Shown here piece after piece: positions 4,938 to 38,716 of a stretch of DNA of 40,998 nucleotides. The translations under genes and the position numbers were made by a program. The DNA is from a virus: positions 1-40,998 of the IMG/VR virus record IMGVR_UViG_3300021559_000004. One strand, 5' to 3'. Each line of letters opens with the position of its first letter. The stretch's first letter is position 1. The notes beneath the pieces are model-generated. The model did not search any database. It had not been told where the DNA came from and was given only the letters and a program-made list of their open reading frames with translations.

Positions 4938-5690
4938 ATGAAAAGAAAACTCTTTTCGCTAGCGATCGCACTTTTCGTTTGCGCTCTCGAGTGCCGTGCT
5001 GAGTTACCACGAGACGCAAAAATGTATATCGAGCCTTTCGATCAGTTCGATACTTATCTAGGCGCCGCATTTTCGAAAAAACACGTGCCAGTCGTTTTGG
5101 TGAGCACCGCGGACCAGGCGGATTTGCAACTTTCCATCCTGAGTGATGGGGAGCTGATCACGGGAGTGCGCGTAGAAGGTCACGAAAAAGAGATTCTTTG
5201 GACGTACCTATTTCCAAAACCCGTACGATCAGAAATGAAATCCGCCGAGAAATGCGCTGGCCAGCTAAAGCATCAGTTCCCTTTGTCTCCCGACGAACTC
5301 GCGCGTCGCGAACAACACCGAGCCGCCGCGGCCGCCGCATCGCAAGCAAGTGCCGAACCGCAAACGATCTGTAACGGCAATTTCCCCATTCGCGCGGGAA
5401 GCTATTTATATTTTCCGTTTCAAATTGATGGCCCACAGACTGTCCGCGGAAGTTTCGAGGTTGCCGGCGGATCCGGAAACGATATTCAGGTAGTTGTCGG
5501 TCCGCGCTCTGAGGTCCTGAATTGGTTGAACGGTCACGGTGGAAACATCAGCTATGCATCCGACAAACTCACATCGGGGAATCTCAATGTCGCATTGACG
5601 GACCCGGGCGACTATCTGCTGGCGTTCAGCAATAGATTTTCGGTTGTATCGGCTAAGAGCGTGTCCGCAAACGTGCAACTAGCGCCCTAG
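4938..5690 (+). CDS. Secreted protein with C-terminal GOLD-like beta-sandwich domain
   Basis: 250 residues; GGGGAGG precedes the ATG. A classical signal peptide (KRK, then a hydrophobic core, ending near residue 21) is followed by an unassigned alpha/beta region. A Gln/Ala-rich linker (about 122-137) leads to a beta-rich C-terminus of the kind found in emp24/GOLD-like extracytoplasmic domains (about 145-250). It has its own promoter and converges on the late operon. The stop shares a CTAG with that of the opposite gene at 5687. Not an obvious virion or replication protein, so it may be a cargo gene altering the host envelope; that role is inference. Confidence 0.7.
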   Translation: MKRKLFSLAIALFVCALECRAELPRDAKMYIEPFDQFDTYLGAAFSKKHVPVVLVSTADQADLQLSILSDGELITGVRVEGHEKEILWTYLFPKPVRSEMKSAEKCAGQLKHQFPLSPDELARREQHRAAAAAASQASAEPQTICNGNFPIRAGSYLYFPFQIDGPQTVRGSFEVAGGSGNDIQVVVGPRSEVLNWLNGHGGNISYASDKLTSGNLNVALTDPGDYLLAFSNRFSVVSAKSVSANVQLAP

Positions 5691-6271
5691 CGATTCATCA
5701 GCCAGGCGATCGCAGCCACGCCGGCGATCACTCCCACAACAACAACGCCGGCGGACACCGGCGTAACGTTCGCCTCGAGACTGGCCGCGGAGAGATCCGG
5801 AAACCAGGAAGAAGTATCCACACCTGGCACGAGTGCCGGCGCCGTCGACGGTGGCGGTGGAGGCGACGGTGCAGAGTATCCGCCGGCGAGGCCTAAGACT
5901 TTCGAGACATAGCCCATGACGGACGTGGGAATCGATGCCCCCGAGCTCACATTGCCCGGGCCCCAATTGTAGGCCGCGAGTGCATCCGACCAATTCCCGA
6001 ACTTGTCATAAAGATCTTTCAGGAACGTGATCCCGCCCTTGATGTTGCCGGATAGATCCGTCGGATCCACACCCAGGCCGGCGGCCGTCGCCGGCATGAG
6101 CTGAAAGACTCCGAGAGCGCCTTTCGGACTCGTGACAACGTTGCCGTTGGGAAGCCATTGCGAGATCCCGCTTTCAGTTTGAGCAACTCCAAGCGCAATT
6201 TCCGGAGGAACGCCCTGCGCGGCCGCTTCCGCGGTGATCAGATCTCGCAAATTGACGTCACCAAGAGCCAT
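5687..6271 (-). CDS. Tail-anchored lytic transglycosylase (SLT domain)
   Basis: 194 residues. The SLT fold is clear: AQTESG with catalytic Glu33, GALGVFQLMPATA (about 51-63) and ALAAYNWGPG (about 97-106). It cleaves the MurNAc-GlcNAc bond of peptidoglycan. A Pro-rich linker leads to a C-terminal membrane span (about 172-190) ending in NR, so the enzyme is tail-anchored like several other proteins of this block. It is the last gene of the late operon and probably opens the cell wall for DNA entry or cell exit. The ribosome site is weak. Confidence 0.88.
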   Translation of the reverse strand: MALGDVNLRDLITAEAAAQGVPPEIALGVAQTESGISQWLPNGNVVTSPKGALGVFQLMPATAAGLGVDPTDLSGNIKGGITFLKDLYDKFGNWSDALAAYNWGPGNVSSGASIPTSVMGYVSKVLGLAGGYSAPSPPPPPSTAPALVPGVDTSSWFPDLSAASLEANVTPVSAGVVVVGVIAGVAAIAWLMNR

Positions 6272-6300
6272 GTCAATTTATCTGGTGTAGAATTCCACGC

Positions 6301-6447
6301 ATGCAATGGTGGCATGTTCTCATAGCTTGTTTCATGTTCGGCTGGTGGATCTACTGGATCTTCGTCGCCGATGAGAAGCCGCCGAAACTTCCGCCTGGCG
6401 AATACCGCATTGACAACTCCAACGACGATGACACATTGACTCCCTAG
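6301..6447 (+). CDS. 48-residue membrane protein, holin-like candidate
   Basis: A plus-strand gene inside the minus-strand late block. The N-terminal half is a Trp-rich membrane span (about residues 3-22), followed by a Pro-rich and then acidic cytoplasmic or periplasmic tail. Its stop shares a CTAG palindrome (6444-6447) with the stop of the opposite spike gene, as at 5687 and 15623, which argues that it is real. Its start lies 29 bp from the divergent transglycosylase start. A small membrane protein beside a wall hydrolase could be a holin or spanin-like factor; this is inference. Confidence 0.55.
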   Translation: MQWWHVLIACFMFGWWIYWIFVADEKPPKLPPGEYRIDNSNDDDTLTP

Positions 6448-8636
6448 CTCGTCGCCGGCGTCCACGTGTGGTAGTACACAATCAAACGAATTGCGCCGGC
6501 ACCCGGATTCACGTTTGTTGTCACCCGCACCGAAGCTGCTGCAACCTGTCCCATCGTCCCCGCCGTTGCGCTAGTCCACGGCACCATGCAGATGCCGGTT
6601 GTTCCTGCTGTCAGCGTGCTTTGTGCCGCACAAAATCGCGCGGCCGTTGTTGAATCGCCAATGGTGAAATTCGCCGCTGTGGTGATAGTCGTCGTGATCC
6701 GATAAACGACAGCATCGATAACGGCCGTGGCCGGAAGGCAGTTAAGGCCACTGTTAGTAGTGGTTCCAGCTACAGATAACGTCGTTGGGGCGAATGCAGT
6801 TTCGCACGGCGCCGCGGCATTGATGATGCTCGTTCCGAAGGTGTTATCGGTGCTTGAAACTACGCAATTGTTGCAGAGGCCTAGTCCTCCCGCCCCGACG
6901 ACTGTCTGATTGTTGAATTGCGTTGCGCTTCCAGGTCCTGACCCCGAGCCAATCCATGTGTTGAAGCTGCCAGTCACATTCGCATTCGCAGGAGTCGCCG
7001 TATAGCCCGCAACGAAGCCGATGCCGGTGTTATCGTTTCCACCGTTGTTGCTTTGCAGTGTGCGGGCCCCCATCGCCACGTTACGATTACCCGCCACGTT
7101 GTCTCGCAGGGTATCTTCTCCAAAAACATCGTTGTTGGTTCCAGTTGTGTTGCTCAACAAAGAAAGGGAGCCGAATGAAGAATTCAGCCCAGTGGTGTTT
7201 GCTGTTTGTGACTGGTTCCCGAATGCGCTCGCTTCGGTGGTTGTATTGCCTGCCAGAGCATGCCATCCGACTGCCGTCACATTACTTACGCTTGTTCCTG
7301 CGCCTTGAGCATTCGCGCCGATTGCTACGTTGTCGCTCCCAGTGGTGATAGAGCCCAGCGCATTTCCGATTGCAATGTTGAAGTTCCCCGAGGTCAGGGA
7401 AAAAAGACTGGATTGCCCGATGGTGATGTTGAAGGTCCCTGATGTGAGCGAGAAAAAACATTCCAGGTTGGAGGCATTCACGCACACGTTGTTCGTGCCA
7501 GTCGTAGTCGTTACGCCCTGCGTTGTGCCGGTACCCAACAACAGATTGAAACTGCCACCCGTCGGCGCCCTGCCAAGAGTCGTGTTGTTGTTCGTGACAC
7601 TTAAGACCTGTCCACTCGCAGCTCCATTGAATCCGATGGCATTGAGGCCATTTGTAAACAACGTTCCAAAAGACTGCGTCGCTCCGGTTGTCGTGTGATC
7701 TTGGACGCGCAGGCCAACAAAAAGACCTATCGGGCCAGATTGAACGTTCGATGCGGCTAGAAAATCATCCGCCTCAGTCGCAGTGCCAGCTGTGTTAGTA
7801 ATCCCCCCATCGACGCCGATAAGTACTGAAACAGTTCCGGTGCTATTATTTTGGCCCACACCAAATAGGCCTACCTGTTGAGTCACCGTTCCGGACCCAG
7901 TGAAGATGCCTGTAAATGCAGCCCCCTGATTTGTGCTCGTCCCGGTGCTTGAAGTAGTCGCCACTAACCCTGTGACTGTCGGGGCAAAGGTTAGATTCGC
8001 ATTGCCTTGAATTGCATTGACGCCAGAGCCGAAAGCTATCTGCGATGCTGCGATCGATCCGCCGATGGTTCCACCGCCGCCAGGCGTCGAGAGATCCGCA
8101 ACTTGTATGCCATTTTGACGCAAGATCAGGTGACTAACGCCGGCCGATTGCGGTTCATTTTGGAGAGTCAGAACTAGGTTCCCGATGTTCACCGGATTCA
8201 CGGTGTAAGCGCCGGTTGAATTGGAAGTGTCCGCGATCGATGAGCCCGTTTGCGCCGTCGCCACTGCGCACGCGCACGCGCCGGTAGGAGGAATACTCGA
8301 GAGAGTTTTTAGAACATCAACCGAGATCGCGCCGATCGGATACGTGGGAAAGATGTTGATGAAATTTGATCCGGACAAAATACCTGGCGCGCGAGTTACG
8401 ATGAAGGGCCCCGCCGGCGAGCTCGCCCCCACGGTGTAATTCGCCACAACCCAATAGAAAATTGTTTGATTCCCCGGATTCCCAGAGATCGAGAAGCTTG
8501 GAGCCGGAGCCGGAGCCGGCGAGTTGATCAACGGCATGATCACTTGCGGCGTAGTCACCGGAGGCGGCGTTTGTTGCGGAAACAAGGAAGAAGAAGCCAG
8601 CAATAAAAACATTCCGATGGATTTTTGAAGTCTCAT
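6444..8636 (-). CDS. Secreted spike/fibre-like protein with beta-roll repeats
   Basis: 730 residues from ATG 8636, with GAGGAG 5 bp upstream (ATG 8639 and GTG 8642 also possible). It has a signal-peptide-like N-terminus, then a Pro-rich stretch. A domain of about 170 residues is shared with the upstream gene (8646-10025). A long Gly/Asn/Thr-rich region follows, with repeats of the type G-x-x-N-x-x-I-G-x-x-A (e.g. GSDNVAIGANA), like the YadA-head left-handed beta-roll of adhesins and phage fibres. A compact beta C-terminus ends it. Likely a trimeric receptor-binding spike or an exported adhesin. Confidence 0.75.
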   Translation of the reverse strand: MRLQKSIGMFLLLASSSLFPQQTPPPVTTPQVIMPLINSPAPAPAPSFSISGNPGNQTIFYWVVANYTVGASSPAGPFIVTRAPGILSGSNFINIFPTYPIGAISVDVLKTLSSIPPTGACACAVATAQTGSSIADTSNSTGAYTVNPVNIGNLVLTLQNEPQSAGVSHLILRQNGIQVADLSTPGGGGTIGGSIAASQIAFGSGVNAIQGNANLTFAPTVTGLVATTSSTGTSTNQGAAFTGIFTGSGTVTQQVGLFGVGQNNSTGTVSVLIGVDGGITNTAGTATEADDFLAASNVQSGPIGLFVGLRVQDHTTTGATQSFGTLFTNGLNAIGFNGAASGQVLSVTNNNTTLGRAPTGGSFNLLLGTGTTQGVTTTTGTNNVCVNASNLECFFSLTSGTFNITIGQSSLFSLTSGNFNIAIGNALGSITTGSDNVAIGANAQGAGTSVSNVTAVGWHALAGNTTTEASAFGNQSQTANTTGLNSSFGSLSLLSNTTGTNNDVFGEDTLRDNVAGNRNVAMGARTLQSNNGGNDNTGIGFVAGYTATPANANVTGSFNTWIGSGSGPGSATQFNNQTVVGAGGLGLCNNCVVSSTDNTFGTSIINAAAPCETAFAPTTLSVAGTTTNSGLNCLPATAVIDAVVYRITTTITTAANFTIGDSTTAARFCAAQSTLTAGTTGICMVPWTSATAGTMGQVAAASVRVTTNVNPGAGAIRLIVYYHTWTPATS

Positions 8637-8645
8637 CATCACTCC

Positions 8646-10025
8646 TCAGGTTCCCGCCACTACGACCCATGACGTTCCGTTGCAATAGATCTGATCATGA
8701 TGCGCCCCGCCGCCCGTCACAACCGTTCCGTTGGTTGCTGATGTGGCATCAGTGATTGAGCCCGTGCTTCCATCGTAGGTTGCGCTGCACGCAGGTAGCG
8801 CCGAGAACGCTTGAGTCCCAAACCGCAATTGCACGCCAACCGTTTGCGCATCAATCTCGATTCCAGCATGTCTGGTAAGCGTTCCGCCGGTACTAGGCGC
8901 GTAAACATGAAAGGTCATATCGTTTGTGTTGGTTCCACTCGTGGAACCACTCATCGCGATGATGCCTTCGTTCAGAGCGGTAGTGTTGCCGGTAGCGTTT
9001 ACGGCTAGACCGAAGATTGCGCGCCTGGTGCCGACTGTGGGAGTTGACGAATTTTCCCAGGCTTGCGCGTAAAATGCGCGTTCTTCCGTTTCAGAAAGAT
9101 CGGATGCAACTAGAGCTGAGATCCCAACGCCCAACGTGCCGGCGACGAAGTTTGTCGGACGCGCTTCGACAGAAAGGCCGGCAGTAGCACCTGAACTCGT
9201 TCCCGCTCGCACCTGCTGCAGAATACGCGATCCGATGCAGCCATAAGGCGGATTGACGGTGATGGGCACCGTCGCAGAGCCACCGCAATTAGCGGGGTTT
9301 GGAAATACTTGCGCCAGCATGCCAATGGTGCTGGTGAGCGGACTGCCACCTTGGCCGAACTGGATTTGTGCCGCCGTGGCGGTGATCGTAGAGTTGCCGA
9401 GAGTGTTCGTGCCCGTCCAAACGGGAATGAAATTTGCTGTGCCTGATCCGCCGACTGTCCCCGTACCGGCAACGGAAAGATCCGCGACCAGAGTTCCGTT
9501 TCTCATCCTCAATAGCAAATGACTCGAGCCAGACCCGACTACTTCATTCGTTAGGTACAACATGAATTGCGTAGGATCGAGAAGGCTAACGGTGTATGGA
9601 TTGAGCGAGTTTGATTGAAAATTGACAACGCCGGTTGTTACGCCGGTTGCGATCGCACACCCACACGCGCCCGATGGTTGCAGCGCCGTTTGCGTCGCCA
9701 GAAAATCGACCGTGACGCCGCCCGTTGGATAGTTCGCATAGATGGCCAGGTAGTTTTGTGCAGATAGAACAGTCGGTGCATTTGTGACCACACCGAGTAA
9801 AACCATTACGGAACCGATTTGATAGTTGCTGACTCCCCAAATGAACCAGACACCGTTACCAGGCTGCCCGATCACCTGAATATTCGCGCCGGACACCGGC
9901 ACCGCGTTTAAGCCGTAAACAGGGAACTCGAGCCGCGACGTGGAGACTTGGGGAGACACCGGCGGATTCTGCGCCGAGGCGAAAGCGGCGAATAAACATA
10001 AGATCAGAGCACACTTATGTTTCAT
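8646..10025 (-). CDS. Secreted spike-like protein, paralogue of the next gene
   Basis: 459 residues from ATG 10025 (GAGG nearby). A clear signal peptide (MKHK, a hydrophobic core, ASAQ). The next ~180 residues align by eye with the N-terminal domain of the 730-residue protein downstream: GNGVWFIWGVSNYQIG, CGCAIATG, YTVSLLDP, SHLLLRMRNG and LVADLS each have a counterpart there. The C-terminal region is different, beta-rich and Thr/Gly-rich. The two genes are nearly touching. Probably one of a pair of alternative or hetero-oligomeric host-attachment proteins. Confidence 0.75.
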   Translation of the reverse strand: MKHKCALILCLFAAFASAQNPPVSPQVSTSRLEFPVYGLNAVPVSGANIQVIGQPGNGVWFIWGVSNYQIGSVMVLLGVVTNAPTVLSAQNYLAIYANYPTGGVTVDFLATQTALQPSGACGCAIATGVTTGVVNFQSNSLNPYTVSLLDPTQFMLYLTNEVVGSGSSHLLLRMRNGTLVADLSVAGTGTVGGSGTANFIPVWTGTNTLGNSTITATAAQIQFGQGGSPLTSTIGMLAQVFPNPANCGGSATVPITVNPPYGCIGSRILQQVRAGTSSGATAGLSVEARPTNFVAGTLGVGISALVASDLSETEERAFYAQAWENSSTPTVGTRRAIFGLAVNATGNTTALNEGIIAMSGSTSGTNTNDMTFHVYAPSTGGTLTRHAGIEIDAQTVGVQLRFGTQAFSALPACSATYDGSTGSITDATSATNGTVVTGGGAHHDQIYCNGTSWVVVAGT

Positions 10026-10033
10026 AATCCGCC

Positions 10034-10885
10034 TCAGGTACTCGAAATTGTGGCGTATGAAACCGTGACCAGCGCCGTTGCGCCTGAGTTGTTGGTAAAA
10101 CACGGTTGCGTCAACTGATTCGGAATCGGAGACCGTTGAGGGAGCGGAACAACGACGGGCGCCGTCAACGTCGAGGGAATGCTCATCGACCAGGATTGAA
10201 CCCCCGAACCGGTCGAGCACAAGGTGGGAGGCGTCACCCAATTGAAATTGACATTGCCACCGGTAGGAGCTGCAGTGTAGGAGATCGTAAAACCACAAAA
10301 CACAGTGATTTGATTCGGAGCCGCCGCCAGCACCCCGACCGTGTTAGTCCCGCCAGTTGGGAAAGCTGAGCTTACCTGTTGATCACAAACCGGTGGAGGA
10401 GTAGGACCGTTAGAACTGATACCAGCCGGAACGGGATGCACTGGCGCCGCGGAAGCGGTGTAGTTGATCGTTGTGTTACCGCCGGCCGTCGTCACCACTC
10501 GAGCACGCAAATTCGGATAGTACCCGCCAACCACGATCGTGTGAGGACACCCGCTGTCGGAGTTGTATTGCGCCGTCTGTAAGGGCAAAAACGTCGTAGT
10601 GCCCTGAGGTTCCCATTCCAGATCGACCGAACCGATGAAGTTGGAGTTACAAACCGTGAGGATGTTTGTGCCCTGGCCGATATCGCGCAAAATGTTACTT
10701 GCCGCCGGAACGGCTTGATTCGTGAATAGCCTGATGCTGTAGGTCGCGATTTGCGTTGTTGCCGGCGCGCCTTGTGCCTGGACTCGCCAGTTAGACACAC
10801 CCACAATCGCTGCAATCAAAAGAAACAGCAGCATCACAACGGCGATCACCTTTGCAAAGGTTGATGCAGTTTCGCGAGATCCCAT
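10034..10885 (-). CDS. Membrane-anchored two-domain beta-sandwich protein
   Basis: 283 residues; GGGGAG 8 bp before ATG 10885. A cytoplasmic N-terminus, one membrane span (about 12-31), then two similar beta domains separated by a Pro-rich linker (about 155-167). Each has an ILTVC/ITVFC strand and ends in a run of Thr/Ser/Val strands. Possibly a virion membrane protein carrying a vertex or spike base. No named family. It lies directly upstream of the spike genes. Confidence 0.65.
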   Translation of the reverse strand: MGSRETASTFAKVIAVVMLLFLLIAAIVGVSNWRVQAQGAPATTQIATYSIRLFTNQAVPAASNILRDIGQGTNILTVCNSNFIGSVDLEWEPQGTTTFLPLQTAQYNSDSGCPHTIVVGGYYPNLRARVVTTAGGNTTINYTASAAPVHPVPAGISSNGPTPPPVCDQQVSSAFPTGGTNTVGVLAAAPNQITVFCGFTISYTAAPTGGNVNFNWVTPPTLCSTGSGVQSWSMSIPSTLTAPVVVPLPQRSPIPNQLTQPCFTNNSGATALVTVSYATISST

Positions 10886-10889: not shown

Positions 10890-11516
10890 TTAACTCCCCG
10901 AGGATAGAGATTGTTTTATTGGATAGGTCCAACCGTCGAAGCTTGCGGCCGTGCCGGATCCGCCCGGAGGTTGAAGGTTGGGAGATCCGTCCGGCAATAG
11001 TGCAGGAACTTCCACCGTCACCTGAAATATGTCATTAGCGACGCCTACCAGGACAACAGATAAAGGCGTCGCGAAGGTTCCCACCTGTGCCGTGAGTTGA
11101 TTGAGGCCGCGGATGCCGGCGCCGTTTCTTGTCACGCGCCAAATCACCTGGCCGGTGAAATCGGGAGGATTGCCGCCAATGTGCACGATCGACAAAGCGC
11201 GGATCACCGACATGAGACCGATGCCAACAACGAACGTGATCACCGGCACTTGTCCGAGGCCAAGAGTGGGATACGGCACCGCGGGATTCGCCAGGTTGCC
11301 CGTGAGCGGCGTAACCCGAAACGGAGTGTTATCCGCCGGCGGATTGTAGAACGAGAGATCCGGATTGATGTAGGCCGGCGTAGTGTTGATCAACCTGGCG
11401 CGCGCATCGATCGTCATCTTTTGATCCCAGGTCCACGGCATGTCCGGCAAACTTGGTAACAAAGGTTTTTTCGGACCGCGCGACAAACTCGAGTTGTCAC
11501 CCAAACGAGATCTCAT
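10890..11516 (-). CDS. Beta-rich structural protein (capsid candidate)
   Basis: 208 residues; ATG 11516 overlaps the previous stop (TAATG). After a basic N-terminus the protein is Pro- and beta-rich, with hydrophobic strands such as VPVITFVVGIGL and LSVVLVGVA. It may be a short jelly-roll protein or a minor capsid/vertex component. Sits in a run of similar-sized beta proteins. The assignment is by context. Confidence 0.55.
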   Translation of the reverse strand: MRSRLGDNSSLSRGPKKPLLPSLPDMPWTWDQKMTIDARARLINTTPAYINPDLSFYNPPADNTPFRVTPLTGNLANPAVPYPTLGLGQVPVITFVVGIGLMSVIRALSIVHIGGNPPDFTGQVIWRVTRNGAGIRGLNQLTAQVGTFATPLSVVLVGVANDIFQVTVEVPALLPDGSPNLQPPGGSGTAASFDGWTYPIKQSLSSGS

Positions 11517-11737
11517 TAACTCACCCCAACCACTCTCACGCCGATTTGCACGCCGGCGCCGATCAGGAATCCCGTTGCCGGTGCCAGGTACGGTCCGAGA
11601 GGCCCCGTGTCGCACTGCTCGCCGCAGATCAGAGGTTTCGAGATCACCATCATGATCAGAGCCCCGATCGCGCCCGCCGCCAAGGTTGAGCCCATATCAG
11701 GCCCGTGATGCGGATTGCGCCGTTTACGACGTTGCAT
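11516..11737 (-). CDS. Small membrane protein with N-terminal RRNP motif
   Basis: 73 residues. Starts KRRNP after a run of basic residues. Two hydrophobic spans (about 17-33 and 49-69) are separated by a loop with two Cys residues. The start overlaps the end of the transglycosylase gene. Likely a virion membrane protein; the RNP motif recurs in other late proteins. Confidence 0.65.
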   Translation of the reverse strand: MQRRKRRNPHHGPDMGSTLAAGAIGALIMMVISKPLICGEQCDTGPLGPYLAPATGFLIGAGVQIGVRVVGVS

Positions 11738-12170
11738 AATGCCCCACCCGCGCGATCACCTGATTCCCGTAGTCCGGATTTCCCCCGCCGTTGTAGGAGA
11801 GCAAGGAAGTTTCCGGATCCGTGTGGGTCTCAAAACACCTTTGCAGCTTGCGACACCCGTAATCCACTCCCACATCCGGATCACAGAGCTCCGTCAGGAA
11901 GCGGCCGCCGAACCCATGTTCTATCGCGACCAGGCCCATCACCTGCATCAGCCCGAATGACGTCGCGCGCGTGATCTCTTGCGTTGTGGGCTTGTCAGGA
12001 ATCACCGGCCTTACGTAATTACGTAAAAACGCCGGTTCGAACCGCACCGCCCAGGTACACCAGTCGCTTTCCTGCTCACAGACCGCCGCGACGATAGCCG
12101 GATCCAGCCCGTACTTCCGCGCCCATTTCGTGACCAGCAAAAGCCGAGTTTGAACCGTCGACAGATCCAC
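11724..12170 (-). CDS. Lytic transglycosylase (SLT-like), virion-associated
   Basis: 148 residues from GTG 12170. EQESDW holds catalytic Glu34, SFGLMQVMG is the second SLT motif, and LLSYNGGG the third. It contains several Cys residues that could form disulfides and has no signal peptide or membrane span. It would cut peptidoglycan glycan strands. As the second such enzyme in the genome and flanked by structural genes, it is probably packaged in the particle for genome delivery. Confidence 0.85.
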   Translation of the reverse strand: MDLSTVQTRLLLVTKWARKYGLDPAIVAAVCEQESDWCTWAVRFEPAFLRNYVRPVIPDKPTTQEITRATSFGLMQVMGLVAIEHGFGGRFLTELCDPDVGVDYGCRKLQRCFETHTDPETSLLSYNGGGNPDYGNQVIARVGHYATS

Positions 12171-12176
12171 AAGGCC

Positions 12177-12719
12177 CTATGCGAATTCGCCGCCCCACAA
12201 CACAATTTGCGCTTGCAGGAAATAGTTGCCGGTATTCTGAATGTCCACCTGCAGCGAATCGCCGTTCAGCACTAACGACGGTTCTTTCAGCAGATACGGA
12301 TTTTGTGCCGAGCCGGCGCCCTCGAGATCCGCGATCCCCTTGTTGAACATTTGAAAAATCTTGTCATCGTGCTGATGCAGGATGTTGAAGAGATACGCCG
12401 GTGATTTGATCGTTTGTGTCAGAGCCGTTGTTGTCGCCGGCACTACCACGGCCGTGGCGACGATCGCCCACGGGATAAAGTTTCTCTGCAGGACGAGGCT
12501 TACATCTGACTCTTGATACGGCGCGATTACGTTCGTCCCAGGATTGAACCCGAAATCGAACACTTGAGCTTTTAGCGCCAGGCCCTCAACCGGCAAATCC
12601 CGATCGCGCGGTAGGAACAAATTATTGTTCATGCCGCGTTGCCCGAGCAGATACGGGGAAAGCATACGCAACGGACTCCTGCCACCGGAAAGAGAGCGAA
12701 TCAGGTAGTTACTTGGCAC
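12177..12719 (-). CDS. Structural protein (capsid candidate)
   Basis: 180 residues; GTG 12719 with AGGAGGG about 8 bp upstream overlaps the previous gene. An extended Arg/Pro-rich N-terminal arm is followed by beta-rich sequence (FIPWAIVATAVVVP, SLVLNGDSLQVDIQNTGNYFLQ). The C-terminal strand pattern is common in small jelly-roll proteins. A short capsid or vertex protein is the most likely reading. No family match made. Confidence 0.55.
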   Translation of the reverse strand: MPSNYLIRSLSGGRSPLRMLSPYLLGQRGMNNNLFLPRDRDLPVEGLALKAQVFDFGFNPGTNVIAPYQESDVSLVLQRNFIPWAIVATAVVVPATTTALTQTIKSPAYLFNILHQHDDKIFQMFNKGIADLEGAGSAQNPYLLKEPSLVLNGDSLQVDIQNTGNYFLQAQIVLWGGEFA

Positions 12720-12917: not shown

Positions 12918-13586
12918 TTACTCGCCGTCTAGTTCGACTCCCTTGAATCCAAGCCGAATTGTGTTGGCGACGTTATACGCAATGTTCGCGTTGTTGGCAC
13001 CCTGATAGTTGATCGAGAGAGTCAGCGTGTTTTGATTCCCGACCGACAAAACGGTGTAGGTGACACCGCCGATCGTGATTGCCGCACTTACCCAGGACGA
13101 GCCAGGGACAAACAGACTCCCGCTCACCCATGTGACGGTAGGACTTCCGTTGGTGACTCCCGCGAAACCGAATCCGCCGCCCAGATCTGTGACGGTTCCA
13201 AGAATGTTCGAATTCTTGTTGAACCGGAATGGAGTCAGCAGAGGCATCGGATTTTGCGCCGTGCCCCAAAGGTTCGAGCTGTGCACCGGTTGGTTTGAAA
13301 ACGGCCGCTGATCTCTCGAGTCAGAGATTTGCGCCGTAAACGGGAACGTAGAGACGGCAACCGCCATCATCCAGCGAAACGGCCGATTCAGAACTTGAAC
13401 CGACTGCGCTTGTAGTGTCGCCTGGCCATTGACCGCGAGCGGCCCCAACTCATACGTAAATTCGCGCCCGGGATTGAATTCGGCACCCGAGCCATCGCAC
13501 AAGGGACACAACGCCGGCGTTTGCCCGTCCTTGCCGTAAACCATTCCGGAGCCGTTGCAAGCCGAGCAGGTTTTTCCAGCAGCCAT
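12918..13586 (-). CDS. Structural protein with N-terminal DnaJ-type zinc finger
   Basis: 222 residues from ATG 13586. The N-terminus has CSACNGSG and CPLCDGSG, the CxxCxGxG pair that forms one zinc site in DnaJ. The remaining ~185 residues are beta-rich with Gly/Asn/Thr turns. The protein sits directly after the main capsid candidate. The fold is plausibly a second single jelly-roll capsid protein with a zinc-binding arm; the fold is inference. The fusion of a chaperone-type zinc site to a virion protein is unusual. Confidence 0.6.
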   Translation of the reverse strand: MAAGKTCSACNGSGMVYGKDGQTPALCPLCDGSGAEFNPGREFTYELGPLAVNGQATLQAQSVQVLNRPFRWMMAVAVSTFPFTAQISDSRDQRPFSNQPVHSSNLWGTAQNPMPLLTPFRFNKNSNILGTVTDLGGGFGFAGVTNGSPTVTWVSGSLFVPGSSWVSAAITIGGVTYTVLSVGNQNTLTLSINYQGANNANIAYNVANTIRLGFKGVELDGE

Positions 13587-13688: not shown

Positions 13689-14423
13689 TTACTGGACCTG
13701 GCGCGTCAGAATGCCGTCGAGATGAACCACGATCGTGGCGCCGACACCCGCGGGATTCGTCGAGTTGGCCGCGAAGTTGAAGGCCACGTTAGGCGTCAAC
13801 GTGACGTTGAAGTTTTCGCCGTATCCGATGATCACGGGCTTGTTCAGGCCGTAGACCGCTCGAGGATCAGGAATCCCGTTCGACGTCGAGAACAGCGGAG
13901 CCGAGCCGGCCGGCGCCGTGCCGACCTGAGCCGCGGCCGTGACGATCGCGCCCATGCCAGCCGTGAGCACCGCAAGCGGACACTGAAAGAACGGTTTCAG
14001 GCCAACCGTGAGGGTATAGCTCACGTTCAGCATGAGGTTGTTCAGATCCGCCGGCACCGTGTTGTTCGAAATGAAAACCTTGAGCGCCGTGACGGTGAGT
14101 GTCTGAGGAAATGGGAGCTGGCCGCCCGTGCCCTGCAGGTTGGTTGCGTTCAACAGTTTCGTTCCAGAAATCGGAGTCTGGAAGTAAACCGTTGTCGCCA
14201 TCGCGGCCGCTTGCGCGAAGCTGGCGGAATCGTAGTAGGTCCAATCGATCACATCGATCTGACCAGGTACGCCCGGGTTTTGATGACGCTGGCGGATCGG
14301 ACCGAGGCCGCGCTTTGAAATCCGGTCGAGAGTGCGCGCGTTGCGTTCCACCGCACGCCGGTTGATCCTGTCGAGAACATTGCGCCCGACCAAGGAAACC
14401 GAAGTCTGCATTTCGTGAGTCAT
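13689..14423 (-). CDS. Putative major capsid protein (single jelly-roll candidate)
   Basis: 244 residues. ATG 14423 follows a very strong GAGGAGAAG ribosome site and stable upstream hairpins, as expected for an abundant product. A basic Arg-rich arm (1-47) is followed by a beta-rich body: TVYFQTPISG, LTVTALKVFIS, LMLNVSYTLTVGL, VIIGYGENFNVTLTP and IVVHLDGILTR look like successive jelly-roll strands. The size suits the single jelly-roll capsid proteins of sphaerolipovirus-like phages. The identity is inferred from fold pattern and context. Confidence 0.55.
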   Translation of the reverse strand: MTHEMQTSVSLVGRNVLDRINRRAVERNARTLDRISKRGLGPIRQRHQNPGVPGQIDVIDWTYYDSASFAQAAAMATTVYFQTPISGTKLLNATNLQGTGGQLPFPQTLTVTALKVFISNNTVPADLNNLMLNVSYTLTVGLKPFFQCPLAVLTAGMGAIVTAAAQVGTAPAGSAPLFSTSNGIPDPRAVYGLNKPVIIGYGENFNVTLTPNVAFNFAANSTNPAGVGATIVVHLDGILTRQVQ

Positions 14424-14525: not shown

Positions 14526-15119
14526 CTAGGAACGTGGTGAGCTGCGAACCGCGCGAGCAGGAGCGCCAGCAGCCGCGGCCGCCATTGCACCCGCGCCGCC
14601 AGGCACAGGAGCCGGCAACGCCGGTTGAGCGTAGGACCAGCCCGGCACCGGGTAGATGCCCGTCTGATACTCACCCAGGCCGGCAAAATCCGGATCCCCG
14701 AGGCCACTCATGGACGGTTGTGAGCCCGAGACCTGTTCTTGGAAGATGCGCAGCACAACCGCGGATGCGCCGCCGGCGACAACGCCGGTTGCGACTTCGC
14801 GGCCCAGGAACTTGGCAGTGACCCAGCCGAGAGCCACGGCGACGGCCGCCATGACCGCATAGCCGGTTGCGCCCGTGTTCTTGTCCTGCAAGATCAGTTG
14901 TGTTGCGTACTTCGTCGCGAGAGTGCCACCGGCCGCGCCGAGCGCCAGCTTGATCAATTCGGTAGCGGAGTAGCCGGCGATTGACGGATTCCGACCATTC
15001 CCACGCCGGCGGAAGCTGTGCCGTACGCGACGAGCTTTGAAAGGATTGGAACGATGCGCACGCCGCGCGGAGGCACGACGTGACGAGCGATGACGACGAC
15101 TCTTCTTCGGATTCGCCAT
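14526..15119 (-). CDS. Basic-tailed multi-span membrane protein with YPVPGWSY motif
   Basis: 197 residues from ATG 15119 (CAGGAG upstream). The first 50 residues are Arg/Lys/Ser-rich with three NP motifs (ANPKK, SNPFK, RNPSI). About three hydrophobic segments follow (about 56-70, 83-100 and 105-125). The C-terminus has two GLG turns, then GEYQTGIYPVPGWSY, a motif shared with the product of 22676-23314, and an Ala/Pro-rich end. Probably a virion membrane protein with a DNA-binding tail. Confidence 0.65.
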   Translation of the reverse strand: MANPKKSRRHRSSRRASARRAHRSNPFKARRVRHSFRRRGNGRNPSIAGYSATELIKLALGAAGGTLATKYATQLILQDKNTGATGYAVMAAVAVALGWVTAKFLGREVATGVVAGGASAVVLRIFQEQVSGSQPSMSGLGDPDFAGLGEYQTGIYPVPGWSYAQPALPAPVPGGAGAMAAAAAGAPARAVRSSPRS

Positions 15120-15311
15120 AAGGTAAAGCACTCCTGAGTTTTGGCGCCGTGACCGGCGTGATTTTTTGTGCGGATTCGAAACGCGGAGCGTGCGAACTGT
15201 AGGCACGATGCGACTCCCGACAAAAGTTTTCTTTGGGTTATCACTCCGGAGGATTGCTAGGCGGGAAAATGCAGCTCTAAAAACAAAATCCCCACGCGGC
15301 AACTACCGCAG

Positions 15312-17596: not shown

Positions 17597-18514
17597 TTAC
17601 CGACTCGAGATCATCATCACGTTCGCATCCGCATTGTGCTCTGTGATGAGGCCGCCGACCAGGTAAGGCCAGGCCGGCGTACTTGTGCTATCGATCAACA
17701 TGAACAACTGATCGCCGGCCGCATCCTGGCGAACGTCAAACATCCGGACCGGCGTGCCCGCTTGCTCTCGTTGCTCTTCGCTGAGATCGACAACGAAACT
17801 GAAGATCGGACCGACCGCGGCGACCGGACCATTCCGCGGATCCGGCAAGAGCGCATTGACGTGCGGATCGATCTTTTGTTCTTTCGTGATCGATTTGCGC
17901 TGAAACCCGTGACACTCCGTACACCGACCGACCAGGAAATCTGTACTCCCACCCTTGAGGCCGGTTGAGTAGCGCGTTTGCCCTTTGCAGAACGAGCACA
18001 CGATTTGCCCCGAGCCCTTACACATCACGCATTCAACCTTCGGGTAAATCGCGCCATGCCCCTGGCACTTGTTACACTGCGGATCAAATTTTCCGATCTT
18101 CGCGACGCATTCGGGACAGACTTCCGCCGGTCCGAGAGTGTATCCACTCCCACCGCAACCGACGCCCTCACAAATCTTTCGGCCGGACTCATTGCAGACG
18201 TGGCAGCCATGCAGACATGCCGGACAGAACTCCTCCGTTTTTTCCGTAAGTGCCGGCACCCCTTCCCATGGTGTGAGCACGATCAACTTTTGGAGATCCG
18301 CTTTCTTCTCGAGATCCGTCATGTATCCGACGGTGGGCCCGGTTGGAACGTTGTTCGACACCGGAAAACGCAAAGCGCCGGCGAAAGTTTCGATCAAGGA
18401 AATGGAACCGAGAACAATAAACTGGCCCCGGCGATGAGCTTGCAAACGTTCCTGCATCATGGCCAGCAATTCGGGATTTACTTGCTTTCTAACTCGCGGC
18501 ATTCGTTTAGTCAT
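17597..18514 (-). CDS. DnaJ-type multi-zinc protein
   Basis: 305 residues; AAAGGA 8 bp before ATG 18514. A basic start and ~90 residues of mixed sequence are followed by a Cys-rich centre (about 97-205): CPAC, CHVC, CEGVGCGGSG, CPEC, CNKCQGHG, CVMCKGSG, CSFCKGQT and CTECHGF. These CxxC-x-G repeats are the DnaJ central zinc domain in type, but no J-domain is present. The C-terminal 100 residues are alpha/beta (MFDVRQDAAGDQLFMLIDS). It may act as a folding factor for capsid proteins or be structural. Confidence 0.7.
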   Translation of the reverse strand: MTKRMPRVRKQVNPELLAMMQERLQAHRRGQFIVLGSISLIETFAGALRFPVSNNVPTGPTVGYMTDLEKKADLQKLIVLTPWEGVPALTEKTEEFCPACLHGCHVCNESGRKICEGVGCGGSGYTLGPAEVCPECVAKIGKFDPQCNKCQGHGAIYPKVECVMCKGSGQIVCSFCKGQTRYSTGLKGGSTDFLVGRCTECHGFQRKSITKEQKIDPHVNALLPDPRNGPVAAVGPIFSFVVDLSEEQREQAGTPVRMFDVRQDAAGDQLFMLIDSTSTPAWPYLVGGLITEHNADANVMMISSR

Positions 18515-18551
18515 GTTGGGAATCCTTTGGGTAACTTGGAATGACGCGATT

Positions 18552-22362: not shown

Positions 22363-22366
22363 AGAG

Positions 22367-22669: not shown

Positions 22670-22675
22670 GCGCGA

Positions 22676-23314: not shown

Positions 23315-23318
23315 GTGA

Positions 23319-24035: not shown

Positions 24036-24060
24036 GAGTCACCCAACCTTTTCCACGAAT

Positions 24061-24984: not shown

Positions 24985-25364
24985 TAGCGACGAAACGCAA
25001 GTACGAGAAGAGCGACCCCGCCGATCAAAACGATCGGATTGCTCAACAGCCCGGTTAACGACGTCCCGAACTGACTACTGAGGCCAGGAATTGAGCCAGA
25101 CGGATAGAGACCAGGCGCGCCGGCGAAACTTGTGACCGAGGACGCGCCCGTCATCGGATTCACGATCGATGAGTACATGGGAGGAGTCACCGCGACTTTC
25201 GCCACCGACCCCGCGGTTTGAATGCCCGTGCTGATGATCTGGCTCCAATCGATGCCGTCATCACCCATTCCGCGCAACCGACGCATCCGACGCTGCGCAA
25301 TCGATGACGCTCGAGGTCGCCCGAGGCCCCGCATTCTTGGTTGAGGTAATACAACTTCGATCAT
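24984..25364 (-). CDS. RGLG-leader tail-anchored membrane protein
   Basis: 126 residues; GAGGGT before ATG 25364. Leader contains MRGLGRPR and RRLRGMGDDG, a duplicated RG(L/M)G unit. A Ser/Gly/Thr-rich body and a C-terminal span (about 107-123) ending LAFRR. Smallest of the family. No enzyme motif. Confidence 0.65.
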   Translation of the reverse strand: MIEVVLPQPRMRGLGRPRASSIAQRRMRRLRGMGDDGIDWSQIISTGIQTAGSVAKVAVTPPMYSSIVNPMTGASSVTSFAGAPGLYPSGSIPGLSSQFGTSLTGLLSNPIVLIGGVALLVLAFRR

Positions 25365-28552: not shown

Positions 28553-30028
28553 ATGACCCGTAGAAAATCAGCCGCCGCGGTTGCAGTCGAAGAGAATGCA
28601 ATCGAAGAGAATTCAATCCTCTCACCGATCGAGGTTCCCGAGCAGGAACGTGATGCCTACTGGAATGGACTTTTAAGCGATCTCGATTTGTTGCGTGCAT
28701 CGATTGCAACCATCGAATTTTTCCCGCTACTCCGAGCACTCCCGCGCGCGTTGTGGGAGAAACGAGTGTTGGTTTATCTCTATCGCACGTCGCCCAAGGT
28801 GAAGAACCAGGCCGGCGATCGCGCCTACATCGAGAAGATCTCGAGGCCGTTTGATGAGGATTACATCAAGGAAAATCACGGAGGCGGATCCTATATCGCT
28901 TACCTGAATCTTGATCGTGAAACGCAGTTGAAACAAACGAGTTTCTCGGTTGACGGATCTCCCAAGTTGCTTCCCGGTCAAACCATAGTCGACCAGGCCG
29001 GCAACGTTTTGCCGATGCCGCAGACGCCGGCCGCGGCCGCTCACAGCGAAGCGAGCCAGGTGATCGCGGCCGCCGGCGAAGTACAGCGCGCCAGCATGGA
29101 GACATTGAGCAAAGCCGCGGATGATGCCCTCGACCTGCAGAAGAGAGTTTTCGAAAAGAGTGCCGGCCTGTTACCCAACGCGCGCGAAGATAAAATGCTT
29201 GAGCTTCTATTGACCAGAGCACTCGCGCCGGCGCCCGATCCGATGCTTGCCGCCATCACGATGATGGAAAAAATGGATAGCATTATCGCGCGCCGGATGC
29301 CAAAAGAAGAAAACGAGCACAAGGAACCGGCAACACCGTTGAATGAAACCCTGCAAACCGTGGAGCTGCTCACGGGGAAGAGCATGCCGGATCTCATGAA
29401 GAACCGCGGAGGCGGTGACAGCGGTCCGGATTGGATCAGCGCCGCGATCTCAGCCGCAACCAGGTTGATTGATAACTTGCCGGCGATCATTCAGAACATC
29501 GGCGCAAATCAGGAACGCGCCTTTGCGCGCCAGGTGGAGATTGCACGGATCCGCGCCGGCCAACTTCCCCCTGCAGCGCCGCCCACCGTCGACGCCGTAG
29601 CAGTTCCGCCGGCGCCAGCGAACGGCATGCCAGGCAATCGCGTCGCCCCACCGCCGGTTACAATGTTCACCAGCCCCGAGCCGGCCGTCCCGACCAACGG
29701 CGCCGCAGATCCGATGCAATCGATTCCCTTAATCGTCAAGTTTGTGCGCGAGAAGTTTGACGCTGGATATTCAGGCCAGGCCGTCGCCCAGGCGCTCGAC
29801 GTTCTCTTCCCACTCTTTTTGCAACAGTTTGGGCCCGTTGTCTTGAACGAGCAGGAGTTTACGAAGTTTCTCACCGGCGTTCCCGACCTGGCGCCTTGTC
29901 TCATGTCGCCCGACTGGCCAGAGTTCCGCGCGGAGTTTACCCAATTCATTGCGGATGAGCTCTCGGAAGATATCGGAAACGAGGCAGGGACTTCGAAGCC
30001 CGTGACAATGCCAGCCGCTACCGCGTGA
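28553..30028 (+). CDS. Large hypothetical protein of phage type
   Basis: 491 residues; AAGGAG 5 bp before the ATG. The N-terminal ~120 residues are alpha/beta with EKRVLVYLYRTSPKV and ISRPFDEDYIKENHGGGSYIAYL, a pattern I associate with an uncharacterised protein common in environmental phages. The middle (about 150-330) is helical and Ala/Glu-rich, and a Pro-rich linker (about 345-395) precedes a helical C-terminus. The size and acidic helical centre would fit a scaffold or internal protein, but this is a guess. Confidence 0.65.
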   Translation: MTRRKSAAAVAVEENAIEENSILSPIEVPEQERDAYWNGLLSDLDLLRASIATIEFFPLLRALPRALWEKRVLVYLYRTSPKVKNQAGDRAYIEKISRPFDEDYIKENHGGGSYIAYLNLDRETQLKQTSFSVDGSPKLLPGQTIVDQAGNVLPMPQTPAAAAHSEASQVIAAAGEVQRASMETLSKAADDALDLQKRVFEKSAGLLPNAREDKMLELLLTRALAPAPDPMLAAITMMEKMDSIIARRMPKEENEHKEPATPLNETLQTVELLTGKSMPDLMKNRGGGDSGPDWISAAISAATRLIDNLPAIIQNIGANQERAFARQVEIARIRAGQLPPAAPPTVDAVAVPPAPANGMPGNRVAPPPVTMFTSPEPAVPTNGAADPMQSIPLIVKFVREKFDAGYSGQAVAQALDVLFPLFLQQFGPVVLNEQEFTKFLTGVPDLAPCLMSPDWPEFRAEFTQFIADELSEDIGNEAGTSKPVTMPAATA

Positions 30029-31932: not shown

Positions 31933-33045
31933 CTAGTGCTTTTTGATGATGAACAACGCCGCGCCACTCTTCTGCGGCGCTTTCTTCGCGAGCGCGTCGA
32001 CTGCCTCACGCATGGTTCGCATGCGGATATGCGAATAGCGTTTCAACATGGCGTTAGAGATATGGCCGGCGATCTCGATAACGGTTCTCTCGCTGACATT
32101 CTCATCCTCGAGCAACCGCGTGATGGCATGATGCCGCAAATCGTACATCCGCAAACGTGGGAGGCCGGCCGCGGTCCGAAGCTTCTCCCAGGATCCGCGC
32201 CAACTAGAAATCGGCCGCGTTGGATCAAAACCCTTTTGACCGTTGCGCGCGCGATGCGGCAACAAATAGTGGTCCGGTTCAACGCAGCCTAGTTCCCGCG
32301 CGCGCAGTTCTAACTGTCTCAGTGCCCAGGCCGCCGGTTCGTTCAGCGGAATCATGCGGATGCGGTACTGATTTTTCACGCCCTCTTGAATGTGAATTTG
32401 TGGCGGATTCGTTTCCACGTCACGCAAACGCAAATGCCGGATCTCGCCAGGCCCGGCGGTTGTGTTCGCGGTGAGCAAGCTGCACCAATAGGCCAACTTC
32501 CACCGCGGATTCGAAGATGCAACGCGAAACAATTTCACTTCTTCATCCGCGGTGAGCGCACATCCCGCCTTAGGTCGCGGCAACGGCAACGGATGATAGT
32601 GCGCCTCGATCTCCTTCCAGAGACCGGCACGGCCGAGAATTTGTGAGAGCGTATTTAATTCGTGATTGATCCGCGACGGACCGGCGCGACGGTTCCAAGG
32701 AGCGGCGCCGGCCGCGCGCATTTTCTGATACTGCTCAAAGTGTCCTATGTGGATCTCTGCCAATCGCAGCGAAGAAAAGAAACCGGTGAGTGTACGGATG
32801 CACTGTTCGTAATCGCGGATGGTGCCTACACTGATGTGGTTCCGATGGGAGCTCAACCAAACCGGGGCAGCCTCACAAAACCTCAGAGTCCCAAGGAAAT
32901 TCGGATCGACCATGCGCGAACGTGCCCGATCACACGCCGGACAATTGATGTGACCAGGCGAGTGTTCTACTTCTGCAGGGGGAGGCGCAGAGGCGAGAAC
33001 TTCGAAACGGCCGCCGAATCCTATACCGGTGACTGGTTTTTTCAA
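31933..33045 (-). CDS. int: Tyrosine recombinase (phage integrase)
   Basis: 370 residues from TTG 33045, with AGGGA 8 bp upstream. An N-terminal CPAC pair and arm region, a SAM-like core-binding domain (about 55-150), then the catalytic domain: Arg203 (GEIRHL), Lys224, YDLRHH with Arg304, GH at 327-328 and Tyr337 (KRYSHI). The usual His of the HxLR box is Tyr301, as in some phage integrases. It would join the circle to the host chromosome. Nearby palindromes and a tRNA half are consistent with an adjacent attP. Confidence 0.92.
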   Translation of the reverse strand: MKKPVTGIGFGGRFEVLASAPPPAEVEHSPGHINCPACDRARSRMVDPNFLGTLRFCEAAPVWLSSHRNHISVGTIRDYEQCIRTLTGFFSSLRLAEIHIGHFEQYQKMRAAGAAPWNRRAGPSRINHELNTLSQILGRAGLWKEIEAHYHPLPLPRPKAGCALTADEEVKLFRVASSNPRWKLAYWCSLLTANTTAGPGEIRHLRLRDVETNPPQIHIQEGVKNQYRIRMIPLNEPAAWALRQLELRARELGCVEPDHYLLPHRARNGQKGFDPTRPISSWRGSWEKLRTAAGLPRLRMYDLRHHAITRLLEDENVSERTVIEIAGHISNAMLKRYSHIRMRTMREAVDALAKKAPQKSGAALFIIKKH

Positions 33046-33352: not shown

Positions 33353-33359
33353 CGCACCC

Positions 33360-36578: not shown

Positions 36579-36589
36579 GGAGGCTACCC

Positions 36590-36958
36590 GTGTTAACCCG
36601 CCAGGAAGAAACCGCCGGAATCAGCCGCAAGGCCCTCGAGACTCTCAACCGATTAAATGCAACTCCCAACACAAACGGCAACGGCAAAGGATCCGCCGCG
36701 GTGAAACGTACGCGATCGGTTGCGGAGATCATTTCCGGATGCATCGCCAACCGCGTGATCGATACGCCCATGCGCCAGGTCGACATTCTCGAGCGCGTGA
36801 ACCACGGAGACATTGTGATCCGAGATACAGCCTTCGAAATGCACCGCGCTACCGTGACCAGCATTTTCCTCAGCTATCACGAAGCCGCCGCCCTGTCGAA
36901 AGTGCTCGCCGATCTCGAGCCGCGCCAGGAGATGACCGCGACCGTCACGAAAGGCTGA
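36590..36958 (+). CDS. 122-residue hypothetical DNA-binding-type protein
   Basis: Starts at GTG 36590 with GAGGAGG 7 bp upstream. A basic, low-complexity first third, then helices MRQVDILERVNHGDIVIRD and HRATVTSIFL, which look like a helix-turn-helix region. The gene ends 3 bp before the packaging ATPase gene, so it may be its partner. Confidence 0.55.
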   Translation: MLTRQEETAGISRKALETLNRLNATPNTNGNGKGSAAVKRTRSVAEIISGCIANRVIDTPMRQVDILERVNHGDIVIRDTAFEMHRATVTSIFLSYHEAAALSKVLADLEPRQEMTATVTKG

Positions 36959-36961
36959 TAA

Positions 36962-38716
36962 ATGACTCTCCCCGTTCCCGCAAAGGTTTTCCGGAAAGGT
37001 CACACGGTTGTTCTTGGAAAAACCGGATCCGGAAAATCTTCGGTGTTGCGCTTGATCACCGAGAACCTGTTAGGCGACGACAAACGAGTCTGCATTGTCG
37101 ACCCTAAAGGCGATTGGTGGGGACTCAAGAAATCCGGCGACGGCAAGAGCGCCGGTTTTCCCGTGATTGCGTTTGGGGACTTCAAAGAGCCGCGCGCGAC
37201 GGATGTGCCGATAAACCAGCACAGCGGGAAAGAAGTTGCGCAGTTGATCGCCACCGGCAACCGGCCATGCATCATCGGATTCCGCGGTTGGATGGTTTCG
37301 CACATGATCCGGTTTTGGCTGGACTTCGCCCAAACCTTGTTCAATCAAAACACTGGCGAGCTCTACGTTGTCATCAGTGAGGTTCAGAACTTCGCGCCCA
37401 AGGGGAAGATCTTCGATCCGGAGGCCGGCAAGTGCCTTCACTGGACGAACAAGATCCTGAGCGAAGGCCGCGGCCTAGGACTCACGTTCTTACTCGATTC
37501 CCAACGTCCACAAAAGGTCCACAACGACACCCTGGACAATTGCGAAACCTTGGTTGCAATGCGCGTGGTGCATCCGCGATCGCGTGAGGCGATCGAGGAA
37601 TGGATGGACGGCGCCGGCGATCCAGCGAAGGCGAAAGAGATTCTCGCGACACTCTCGCAGATGAAAACCGGAGAGGCGTACGTGTGGAGCCCGGAAAACA
37701 ATTTCGGACCGACGCGCGTTCAATTCCCGATGTTCGAAACTTTCGACTCATTCGCCCCGCCGCAATCGCAAAAGCATGTGAGCAACGCCGGTTGGTCAAC
37801 GGTTGATCTCGAGGCAGTCAAGGAAAAGCTTTCGGCCGTAATCGCAGAGCACAAGGCCAACGATCCGAAAGAGCTCAAGGCCGAAATCGCCAGGCTAAAG
37901 GCCGAGGCCGGCAAACTCCACGCCACAAACCGGCACGTTGCGACTGTGAACCCGTCGAAACAGGAGCTCGAGCGCGCATGCGCCGCGGCCGTCCGGACCG
38001 CCACCGCCCCGCTACTCGCGCGCATCGCATCGATTCGAAAACAGGCCAGACAAGTCACCGTCTGGATTCAGTCGTCCACAGGTTCACTTTCTCGAGCCGC
38101 CGCGGCATTAAGCGAAGAGGCGAATATTGAGGCACCCGAGATCCCGCACCATCAAGTTGTTGTACCCCCACCGCAACACCCGCCGACAAACCGGCCGCAG
38201 ACTGCACCGCGGCCGGCGCCGGCGGTGAGCTCTAGCCCCGCGGATCCGGATGCTGATACGGCGATTTCCCCTGGCATGCGCAAGATCCTGGCCGCGGCCG
38301 CACAATTCAACGGCATTGATCCGGAGGAGCTCACCACGATCACCGGATACAAGGCCACATCCCGCAACGAATACACCGGCCGTTTGATCCGCGCCGGCCT
38401 GGCCGAGAAGCGATCGGACAAGAAAATCTATCCCACGGCCGCCGGCATGGACGCGCTAGGCCAGGACTACGAAGCACTGCCCACCGGCCAGGCCCTTTAC
38501 CAATGGTGGAATGCCAGGCTTCCAGAAGGCGAGCAAAAGATTCTCAGGCATCTAGTTGAGGCCGCGGCCGGCGCCGACGTCGACAAAAACGAACTCAGCG
38601 CGGCCGTGGGCTACAAATCCACTTCCCTTAATGAGTACATCGGCCGTTTATCACGCCGGCGCCTTGTGGTGAAAGGATCCGGCACCGTCAAAGCAAATGA
38701 ATCCCTATTCGGATAG
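36962..38716 (+). CDS. HerA/FtsK-type ATPase, probable genome-packaging motor
   Basis: 584 residues. Walker A GKTGSGKSS at 19-27, a Walker B-like LYVVISE (134-140) with Glu140, and SEGRGLGLTFLLDSQRPQ (168-184) carrying the arginine and glutamine typical of HerA-type motors. The usual Asp before Glu140 is Ser. A coiled coil (about 300-320) and a Pro-rich linker lead to two tandem winged-helix repeats near 437-500 and 518-575, each with GYK(A/S)TSxNEYxGRL. HerA-FtsK ATPases pack DNA in tailless internal-membrane phages; with no terminase here, this is the best packaging candidate. Confidence 0.8.
   Translation: MTLPVPAKVFRKGHTVVLGKTGSGKSSVLRLITENLLGDDKRVCIVDPKGDWWGLKKSGDGKSAGFPVIAFGDFKEPRATDVPINQHSGKEVAQLIATGNRPCIIGFRGWMVSHMIRFWLDFAQTLFNQNTGELYVVISEVQNFAPKGKIFDPEAGKCLHWTNKILSEGRGLGLTFLLDSQRPQKVHNDTLDNCETLVAMRVVHPRSREAIEEWMDGAGDPAKAKEILATLSQMKTGEAYVWSPENNFGPTRVQFPMFETFDSFAPPQSQKHVSNAGWSTVDLEAVKEKLSAVIAEHKANDPKELKAEIARLKAEAGKLHATNRHVATVNPSKQELERACAAAVRTATAPLLARIASIRKQARQVTVWIQSSTGSLSRAAAALSEEANIEAPEIPHHQVVVPPPQHPPTNRPQTAPRPAPAVSSSPADPDADTAISPGMRKILAAAAQFNGIDPEELTTITGYKATSRNEYTGRLIRAGLAEKRSDKKIYPTAAGMDALGQDYEALPTGQALYQWWNARLPEGEQKILRHLVEAAAGADVDKNELSAAVGYKSTSLNEYIGRLSRRRLVVKGSGTVKANESLFG

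Follow-up and report, generated by a model that had tools for sequence, protein, structure and literature searches.

Gene content and a predicted jelly-roll protein point to a tailless virus lineage of Acidobacteriota

IMG/VR virus record IMGVR_UViG_3300021559_000004 (positions 1 to 40,998; this whole stretch of 40,998 nucleotides is called the window here) raises the question of what kind of particle is built by a virus in which no tailed-phage genes are recognised. The original prediction, made from the DNA letters alone, proposed a large tailless virus, probably containing a membrane and equipped with a HerA-type motor. When the window was compared with its relatives and with known virion proteins, we concluded that it probably comprises the entire genome of a virus that is temperate and tailless, has a shell of small beta proteins and represents a new (probably family-level) lineage that infects Acidobacteriota. 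The family was previously unrecognised and is also integrated in the chromosomes of soil acidobacteria. Among the papers searched, none described this virus group.

Circular genome and gene inventory

An exact 127-bp terminal direct repeat makes the window a circle of about 40.87 kb, as predicted, and the window is a complete circular genome. Pfam and PHROG scans covered 70 open reading frames (ORFs), and the families were listed as the best 25 of 37, the remainder being weaker than 2e-5. The scans recognised a HerA/DUF87 ATPase, a Dam methylase, a resolvase, RusA, a tyrosine integrase, a Fis-type helix-turn-helix protein, a transglutaminase-like protein, a TadE-like protein and two SLT transglycosylases. 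Terminase, portal, HK97 capsid, tail tube and baseplate were all missing from the matches listed for the window, in agreement with the original prediction, which had named a hidden Markov model search for TerL and portal as a check. Families of head or tail type were limited to lytic, spike or fibre domains, and the sole nominal "terminase" PHROG match was the HerA protein itself, which is also the only protein of the window with a credible Walker A motif. The marks of Caudoviricetes (large terminase, portal, HK97-fold capsid and tail genes) were found neither by the Pfam/PHROG and Walker A searches of the window nor among the matches listed for G813, a complete relative described below.

Relatives and the conserved virion module

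Twelve relatives were collected: six IMG/VR contigs, of which two are circles of 41-43 kb; three proviruses within chromosomes of Acidobacteriota; and three acidobacterial contigs of 3-11 kb, which could be free virus. A virion module of about 20 kb (from 26004 down to 5687 in the window) is common to the relatives and the replication genes are not shared. The gene content and order of the module are kept across free contigs and integrated copies, and the replication genes are swapped. One relative, G001, is a circle of 42.7 kb that is syntenic with the window over the whole module.

The relatives were reached through profiles of the shell candidates (a), (b) and (d) (Table 1). Searches of bacterial genomes with (a) alone gave nothing, and the first match there was the acidobacterial genome G295, in which a two-sequence profile of (b) revealed the same gene order. 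A three-sequence profile of (a) added G479, G517, G440, G447 and G650. Most other IMG/VR scans returned only G001 or nothing, and five further contigs (G810-G814) came with the profile of (d). As the profiles were built iteratively, their E-values are inflated and it is presence or absence that is informative. The spikes, the transglutaminase-like protein and the product of 28553-30028 were each present in eight of the 12 relatives; counts for the most conserved proteins are given in Table 1.

Chromosomal genes flank the copies in G295, G479 and G517 on each side. The host phylum is Acidobacteriota because the genomes searched were those of the phylum to which a Bryobacteraceae genome belongs. 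The G295 provirus (27.1 kb) is bracketed by 18-bp repeats, and no P-loop packaging protein was found within it. G813 is a circle with a 119-bp repeat, and it carries the same virion module alongside other replication genes, among them those for DNA polymerase A, DEAD helicase, Sak4 and a sigma factor. It gave no HerA match, and no terminase or other tailed-phage hallmark was among the best 25 of its 34 families.

Candidate shell proteins

The tandem beta-rich proteins noted in the original prediction lie within 10890-14423 and have orthologues in 10-12 relatives. Homology links (b) with (c) (hhalign E-value 3.6e-12). The AlphaFold2 (AF2) model of (d), made from seven sequences, has a confident beta core with a mean predicted local distance difference test score of 72.7 and a predicted template modelling (TM) score of 0.63; the start of (d) was placed at an internal Met, the ORF opening at 11615. 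When this model was compared with the PDB using Foldseek, sphaerolipovirus/P23-77 capsid proteins appeared beside C1q/TNF-like and phage-spike jelly rolls (E-values 1.5e-3 to 1e-2). Matches included HCIV-1 VP7 (6h9c_D), SH1 VP7 (6qt9_h), P23-77 VP16 (3zn5, 3zn4) and HHIV-2 chain 6h82_b (TM 0.61 by target length). Searching by sequence with SH1 VP7 confirmed the identities of 6h9c_D and 6qt9_h. Given their similar length, the 6h9c chains K, M and I are presumably VP7 too, and 6h82_b was taken as a VP9-type vertex protein solely from a length similar to that of the SH1 and HCIV-1 VP9 chains. In the viral library, the best Foldseek matches of (d) were mostly tail or unidentified phage proteins.

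Profiles were also compared with about 45 known structural proteins using hhalign. P23-77 VP16 ranked first for (d) with an E-value of 5.6e-4 (best shuffled control 0.027), the IN93 homologue of VP16 ranked third and SH1 VP7 fourth. For (a)-(c), shuffled controls were not beaten by any known major capsid protein (MCP). None of the four profiles matched PRD1 P3, PM2 P2 or the FLiP MCP beyond shuffled controls, barring a weak rank-5 match between (d) and FLiP (E-value 0.022). Against PDB sequences, profile searches yielded nothing beyond chance or zinc-finger matches, and tblastn of the capsid candidates against 50,697 phage records gave nothing meaningful.

The assignment of (d) as a jelly roll is thus well supported by the model and its matches, and its link to the single-jelly-roll viruses modestly so; the predicted structure may fit a capsid, vertex or spike protein alike. 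Of the jelly-roll capsid that had been predicted, the jelly roll stood, with VP7 and VP16 among its nearest matches, and its identity as a capsid protein was left less certain by weak matches that are mixed with C1q-like and phage-spike folds.

The HerA-like ATPase

The predicted HerA ATPase is present (Pfam HerA/DUF87, 3.8e-8), although its role as the motor was not borne out. The gene sits among early genes outside the conserved module and was found in three of the 12 relatives (G001, G814 and G479). It is absent from the complete G813 and the bracketed G295, and HerA is therefore a replaceable accessory. Its homologues are widespread in viral contigs, most of which share with the window only HerA and a few small early genes. 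Many of these contigs are tailed phages: the best annotated match, MW202482, is annotated with a terminase, a portal and a tape measure, while a large terminase is present in both G009 and G015 and a tape measure protein in G006. The argument that HerA proves a tailless motor was rejected; the gene most probably serves replication or DNA processing and is one that tailed phages also have.

It is unlikely, in view of this distribution, that HerA packages the genome in the manner of the FtsK/HerA-type ATPases of PRD1, PM2 and the sphaerolipoviruses, with other members of the family using other ATPases. Such a motor would fit the fact that HerA is the only P-loop ATPase of the window, as well as weak similarity, by tblastn, to tailless Vibrio phages of 14 kb (Vinavirales), where the gene in question is recorded as encoding a DNA packaging protein. 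It would also fit the occurrence of HerA in three relatives and of an unrelated P-loop protein of similar length in G517.

As a separate observation, the P-loop region of the G814 homologue (L109:6026-8815, 929 amino acids) is apparently split by an intein-like insertion (GKTGCHRKGQGILMYDG...).

Spikes, membrane anchors and lytic proteins

A hydrophobic anchor forms the C-terminus of six or seven proteins of the module, one transglycosylase and the transglutaminase-like protein among them, and in most it is followed by basic residues. The original prediction had counted about ten membrane proteins, and its two transglycosylases were likewise recovered (Table 1). A virion membrane is plausible from these tail-anchored proteins, and the product of 14526-15302 is a possible DNA-membrane linker. 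When a home-made rule was applied, nearly all large repeat proteins at the module end, in the window and in seven relatives, had a signal peptide, many with cleavage between Ala and Gln; the window protein 6444-8642 failed the strict form of the rule, and no signal peptide was called in (a)-(d). The signal peptides of the spikes suggest assembly at the cytoplasmic membrane.

In the cluster at 21895-25364, an N-terminal motif around RGLG/RGMGD is repeated in several small membrane proteins, as it is in the relatives, and is a possible processing or sorting signal.

Table 1 Features of the window, with strand and supporting evidence
Feature	Coordinates	Strand	Evidence
(a), 244 amino acids, most conserved protein of the module, candidate main shell protein	13689..14423	-	12/12 relatives; 82% identical in G001
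(b), zinc-finger N-terminus and beta domain homologous to (c)	12918..13586	-	11/12 relatives; hhalign (b)-(c)
(c), 180-amino-acid beta protein, homologous to (b)	12177..12719	-	10/12 relatives; hhalign (b)-(c)
(d), predicted single jelly roll, small capsid or vertex candidate	10890..11516	-	10/12 relatives; AF2, Foldseek, P23-77 VP16 profile match
HerA-like ATPase, accessory (replication/DNA processing) rather than conserved packaging motor	36962..38716	+	Pfam DUF87 3.8e-8; 3/12 relatives; occurs in tailed phages
Spike/fibre-like repeat protein, signal-peptide-like N-terminus	6444..8642	-	PHROG virion structural/tail spike matches; 8/12 relatives
Second spike-like protein, Sec signal peptide (cleavage between FAAFASA and QNPP)	8646..10028	-	Conservation, signal-peptide rule
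Exported spike-associated protein (predicted)	10034..10885	-	Conservation, signal-peptide rule
SLT transglycosylase with C-terminal membrane anchor	5687..6271	-	Pfam SLT 8.2e-17; anchor
Second SLT transglycosylase	11724..12170	-	Pfam SLT 4.8e-10
Transglutaminase-like protein with C-terminal anchor	25375..26004	-	Pfam 4.2e-12; 8/12 relatives
Protein with Arg/Lys-rich N-terminus and hydrophobic glycine-rich part	14526..15302	-	11/12 relatives
Small-protein cluster, basic N-termini, several with terminal membrane anchor (22676-23314, 23319-24035, 24061-24984, 24984-25364)	21895..25364	-	
Two conserved module proteins, function unassigned: Cys-rich (17597-18688) and HNH/YahA-like (18552-20828)	17597..20828	-	PHROG scan, conservation
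491-amino-acid protein adjoining the module, conserved	28553..30028	+	8/12 relatives
Tyrosine integrase, also in G810 and G811	31933..33045	-	Pfam; relatives comparison

Integration

The window carries a tyrosine integrase, and dif-type ends were seen in the relatives G295 and G479, not in the window. In these two proviruses the bracketing repeats fall on a dif-like XerCD site that is unique within its region (ATTTTACATAA-TATACG-TTATCAGACGT and ATTGTACATAA-TATGTG-TTATCGGACAC for G295 and G479), the right copies of the repeats retain the spacer and XerD arm, and no integrase was recognised in either provirus. In G517 a 67-bp repeat, with copies at 124811 and 156157, takes the place of a dif-like site. 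All three proviruses, G295 (L081-L084), G479 (L091-L093) and G517 (L094-L096), have truB near one end; with two ending at dif-like sites and one lying between 67-bp repeats, the locus therefore looks like a hot spot.

Other gene products

Residues 284-380 of the 18552-20828 product match PHROG 9437 (1.3e-26), a domain common to many large tailed phages and in some annotated as YahA-like, which is fused here to an HNH-like N-terminus. The product of 21047-21682 has a RuvA C-terminal/UBA-like domain (8.6e-7) beside an extremely Arg/Lys-rich tail, and a like pairing occurs in G295. The TadE-like pilin-type protein at 34325-35083 (Pfam 1.9e-5) was not found in the relatives and could have a role in host attachment or superinfection.

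Comparison with known viruses

SSIP-1 resembles the window in having a circular genome of similar size (43,788 bp). It is a tailless virus with an internal membrane, grouped with the two-MCP viruses, and the window too is tailless by gene content, with a plausible virion membrane; SSIP-1 differs in its virion ATPase, gp40. When (a)-(d) were compared with 17 SSIP-1 proteins using hhalign, shuffled controls were not clearly exceeded and homology to SSIP-1 was not found. The window had been called too large for known membrane phages; SSIP-1 is larger, and SH1 (30.9 kb) had also been omitted, so that genome size as proof of novelty was rejected.

The Sphaerolipoviridae and Matsushitaviridae (SH1, HCIV-1, HHIV-2 and P23-77; kingdom Helvetiavirae, realm Singelaviria) have small MCPs, VP7 and VP16, that resemble (d) by Foldseek and a weak profile match, and they share with the window several small beta proteins in tandem and a transglycosylase. 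The window family differs in its spikes with signal peptides and in having no conserved packaging ATPase, and no BLAST-level similarity to these families was found for the proteins tested. The sphaerolipovirus core comprises two MCP genes together with those for a membrane protein and a packaging ATPase (PMC5332951). Regarding the two single-jelly-roll MCPs that mark Helvetiavirae, one jelly roll, (d), is predicted here, and (b) and (c) are homologous; the conserved packaging ATPase was not found, given the distribution of HerA described above.

Double-jelly-roll phages of the PRD1/PM2 type (Bamfordvirae), including the tailless Vibrio prophages, are likewise tailless, with a transglycosylase, membrane proteins and, in some, an FtsK/HerA-type ATPase. 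However, their genomes are 10-15 kb, and in the window no double-jelly-roll capsid was recognised, (b) and (c) being separate homologous proteins. The Tunturi viruses share acidobacterial hosts with the window family, but all five isolates are tailed, and 98% of the viral units in that study were placed in Caudoviricetes (PMC11924767). MW202482 shares the HerA-like gene with the window but differs in its annotated terminase, portal and tape measure.

Discussion

A tailless jelly-roll virus of a new lineage, as originally predicted, is likely from the hallmark-free module in 12 relatives, the predicted jelly roll of (d) and the lack of sequence relatives in the 50,697 phage records. Its shell would consist of several small beta proteins in the manner of the two-MCP single-jelly-roll viruses P23-77 and SH1; (a) would be the main component, (b) and (c) a related pair of partners, and (d) a jelly roll of small-capsid or vertex type. 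The tail-anchored proteins and the basic 14526-15302 product may be part of a membrane lying within or surrounding the particle. The spike proteins, exported by Sec, would meet the particle at the cytoplasmic membrane. The transglycosylases would open peptidoglycan on entry or exit. The genome would be kept as a circle and integrate through its own integrase or, in some relatives, through host XerCD at dif.

Several points weigh against this reading. The Foldseek matches of (d) are weak (E-values 1e-3 to 1e-2), and with C1q-like and phage-spike jelly rolls occurring among them (d) may be a spike. Among (a)-(d) a structure model was obtained for (d) only, and the main-shell role of (a) rests on conservation. 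The signal peptides were called by a home-made rule, not by SignalP, the host contigs are mostly from metagenome-assembled genomes, and the lineage is described here from its sequences.

The last point, together with the Sec-exported spike-like proteins, the tail anchors and the lack of a conserved packaging motor, would also fit an enveloped or budding particle or a non-virion surface structure, in which the beta proteins are a membrane scaffold and the window is a mobile plasmid or integrative element rather than a classical icosahedral virus. We regard this as improbable, since the beta proteins are of cytoplasmic type with a capsid-like jelly roll, the spikes match virion-protein PHROGs and the transglycosylases are typical of virions. 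It is very improbable that the virus is a tailed phage with a terminase, portal and capsid too diverged for hidden Markov models to recognise: many HerA-sharing contigs are tailed phages, but the window holds no second credible Walker A protein, no match appeared in its circle or among the G813 families listed, and the gene sizes of the module do not suit a portal, a tape measure or an HK97 capsid.

For the preferred tailless jelly-roll lineage of Acidobacteriota, we tentatively suggest, as an idea more doubtful than not, that particles are filled without a dedicated packaging ATPase, with Sec-exported spikes added at the cytoplasmic membrane and a basic membrane protein gathering the DNA. If true, ATPase-free filling and Sec-exported spikes would both be foreign to those known tailless double-stranded DNA phages with which the window was compared. 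The virus isolates described to date from acidobacteria are tailed, hence a tailless family matters, as does its lack of a conserved packaging motor, and its module supplies profiles for finding a tailless group missed by surveys in a main soil phylum. It also makes it testable whether a circular virus of ~40 kb can fill its particles when no motor is conserved, and why export signals would be present on its spikes.

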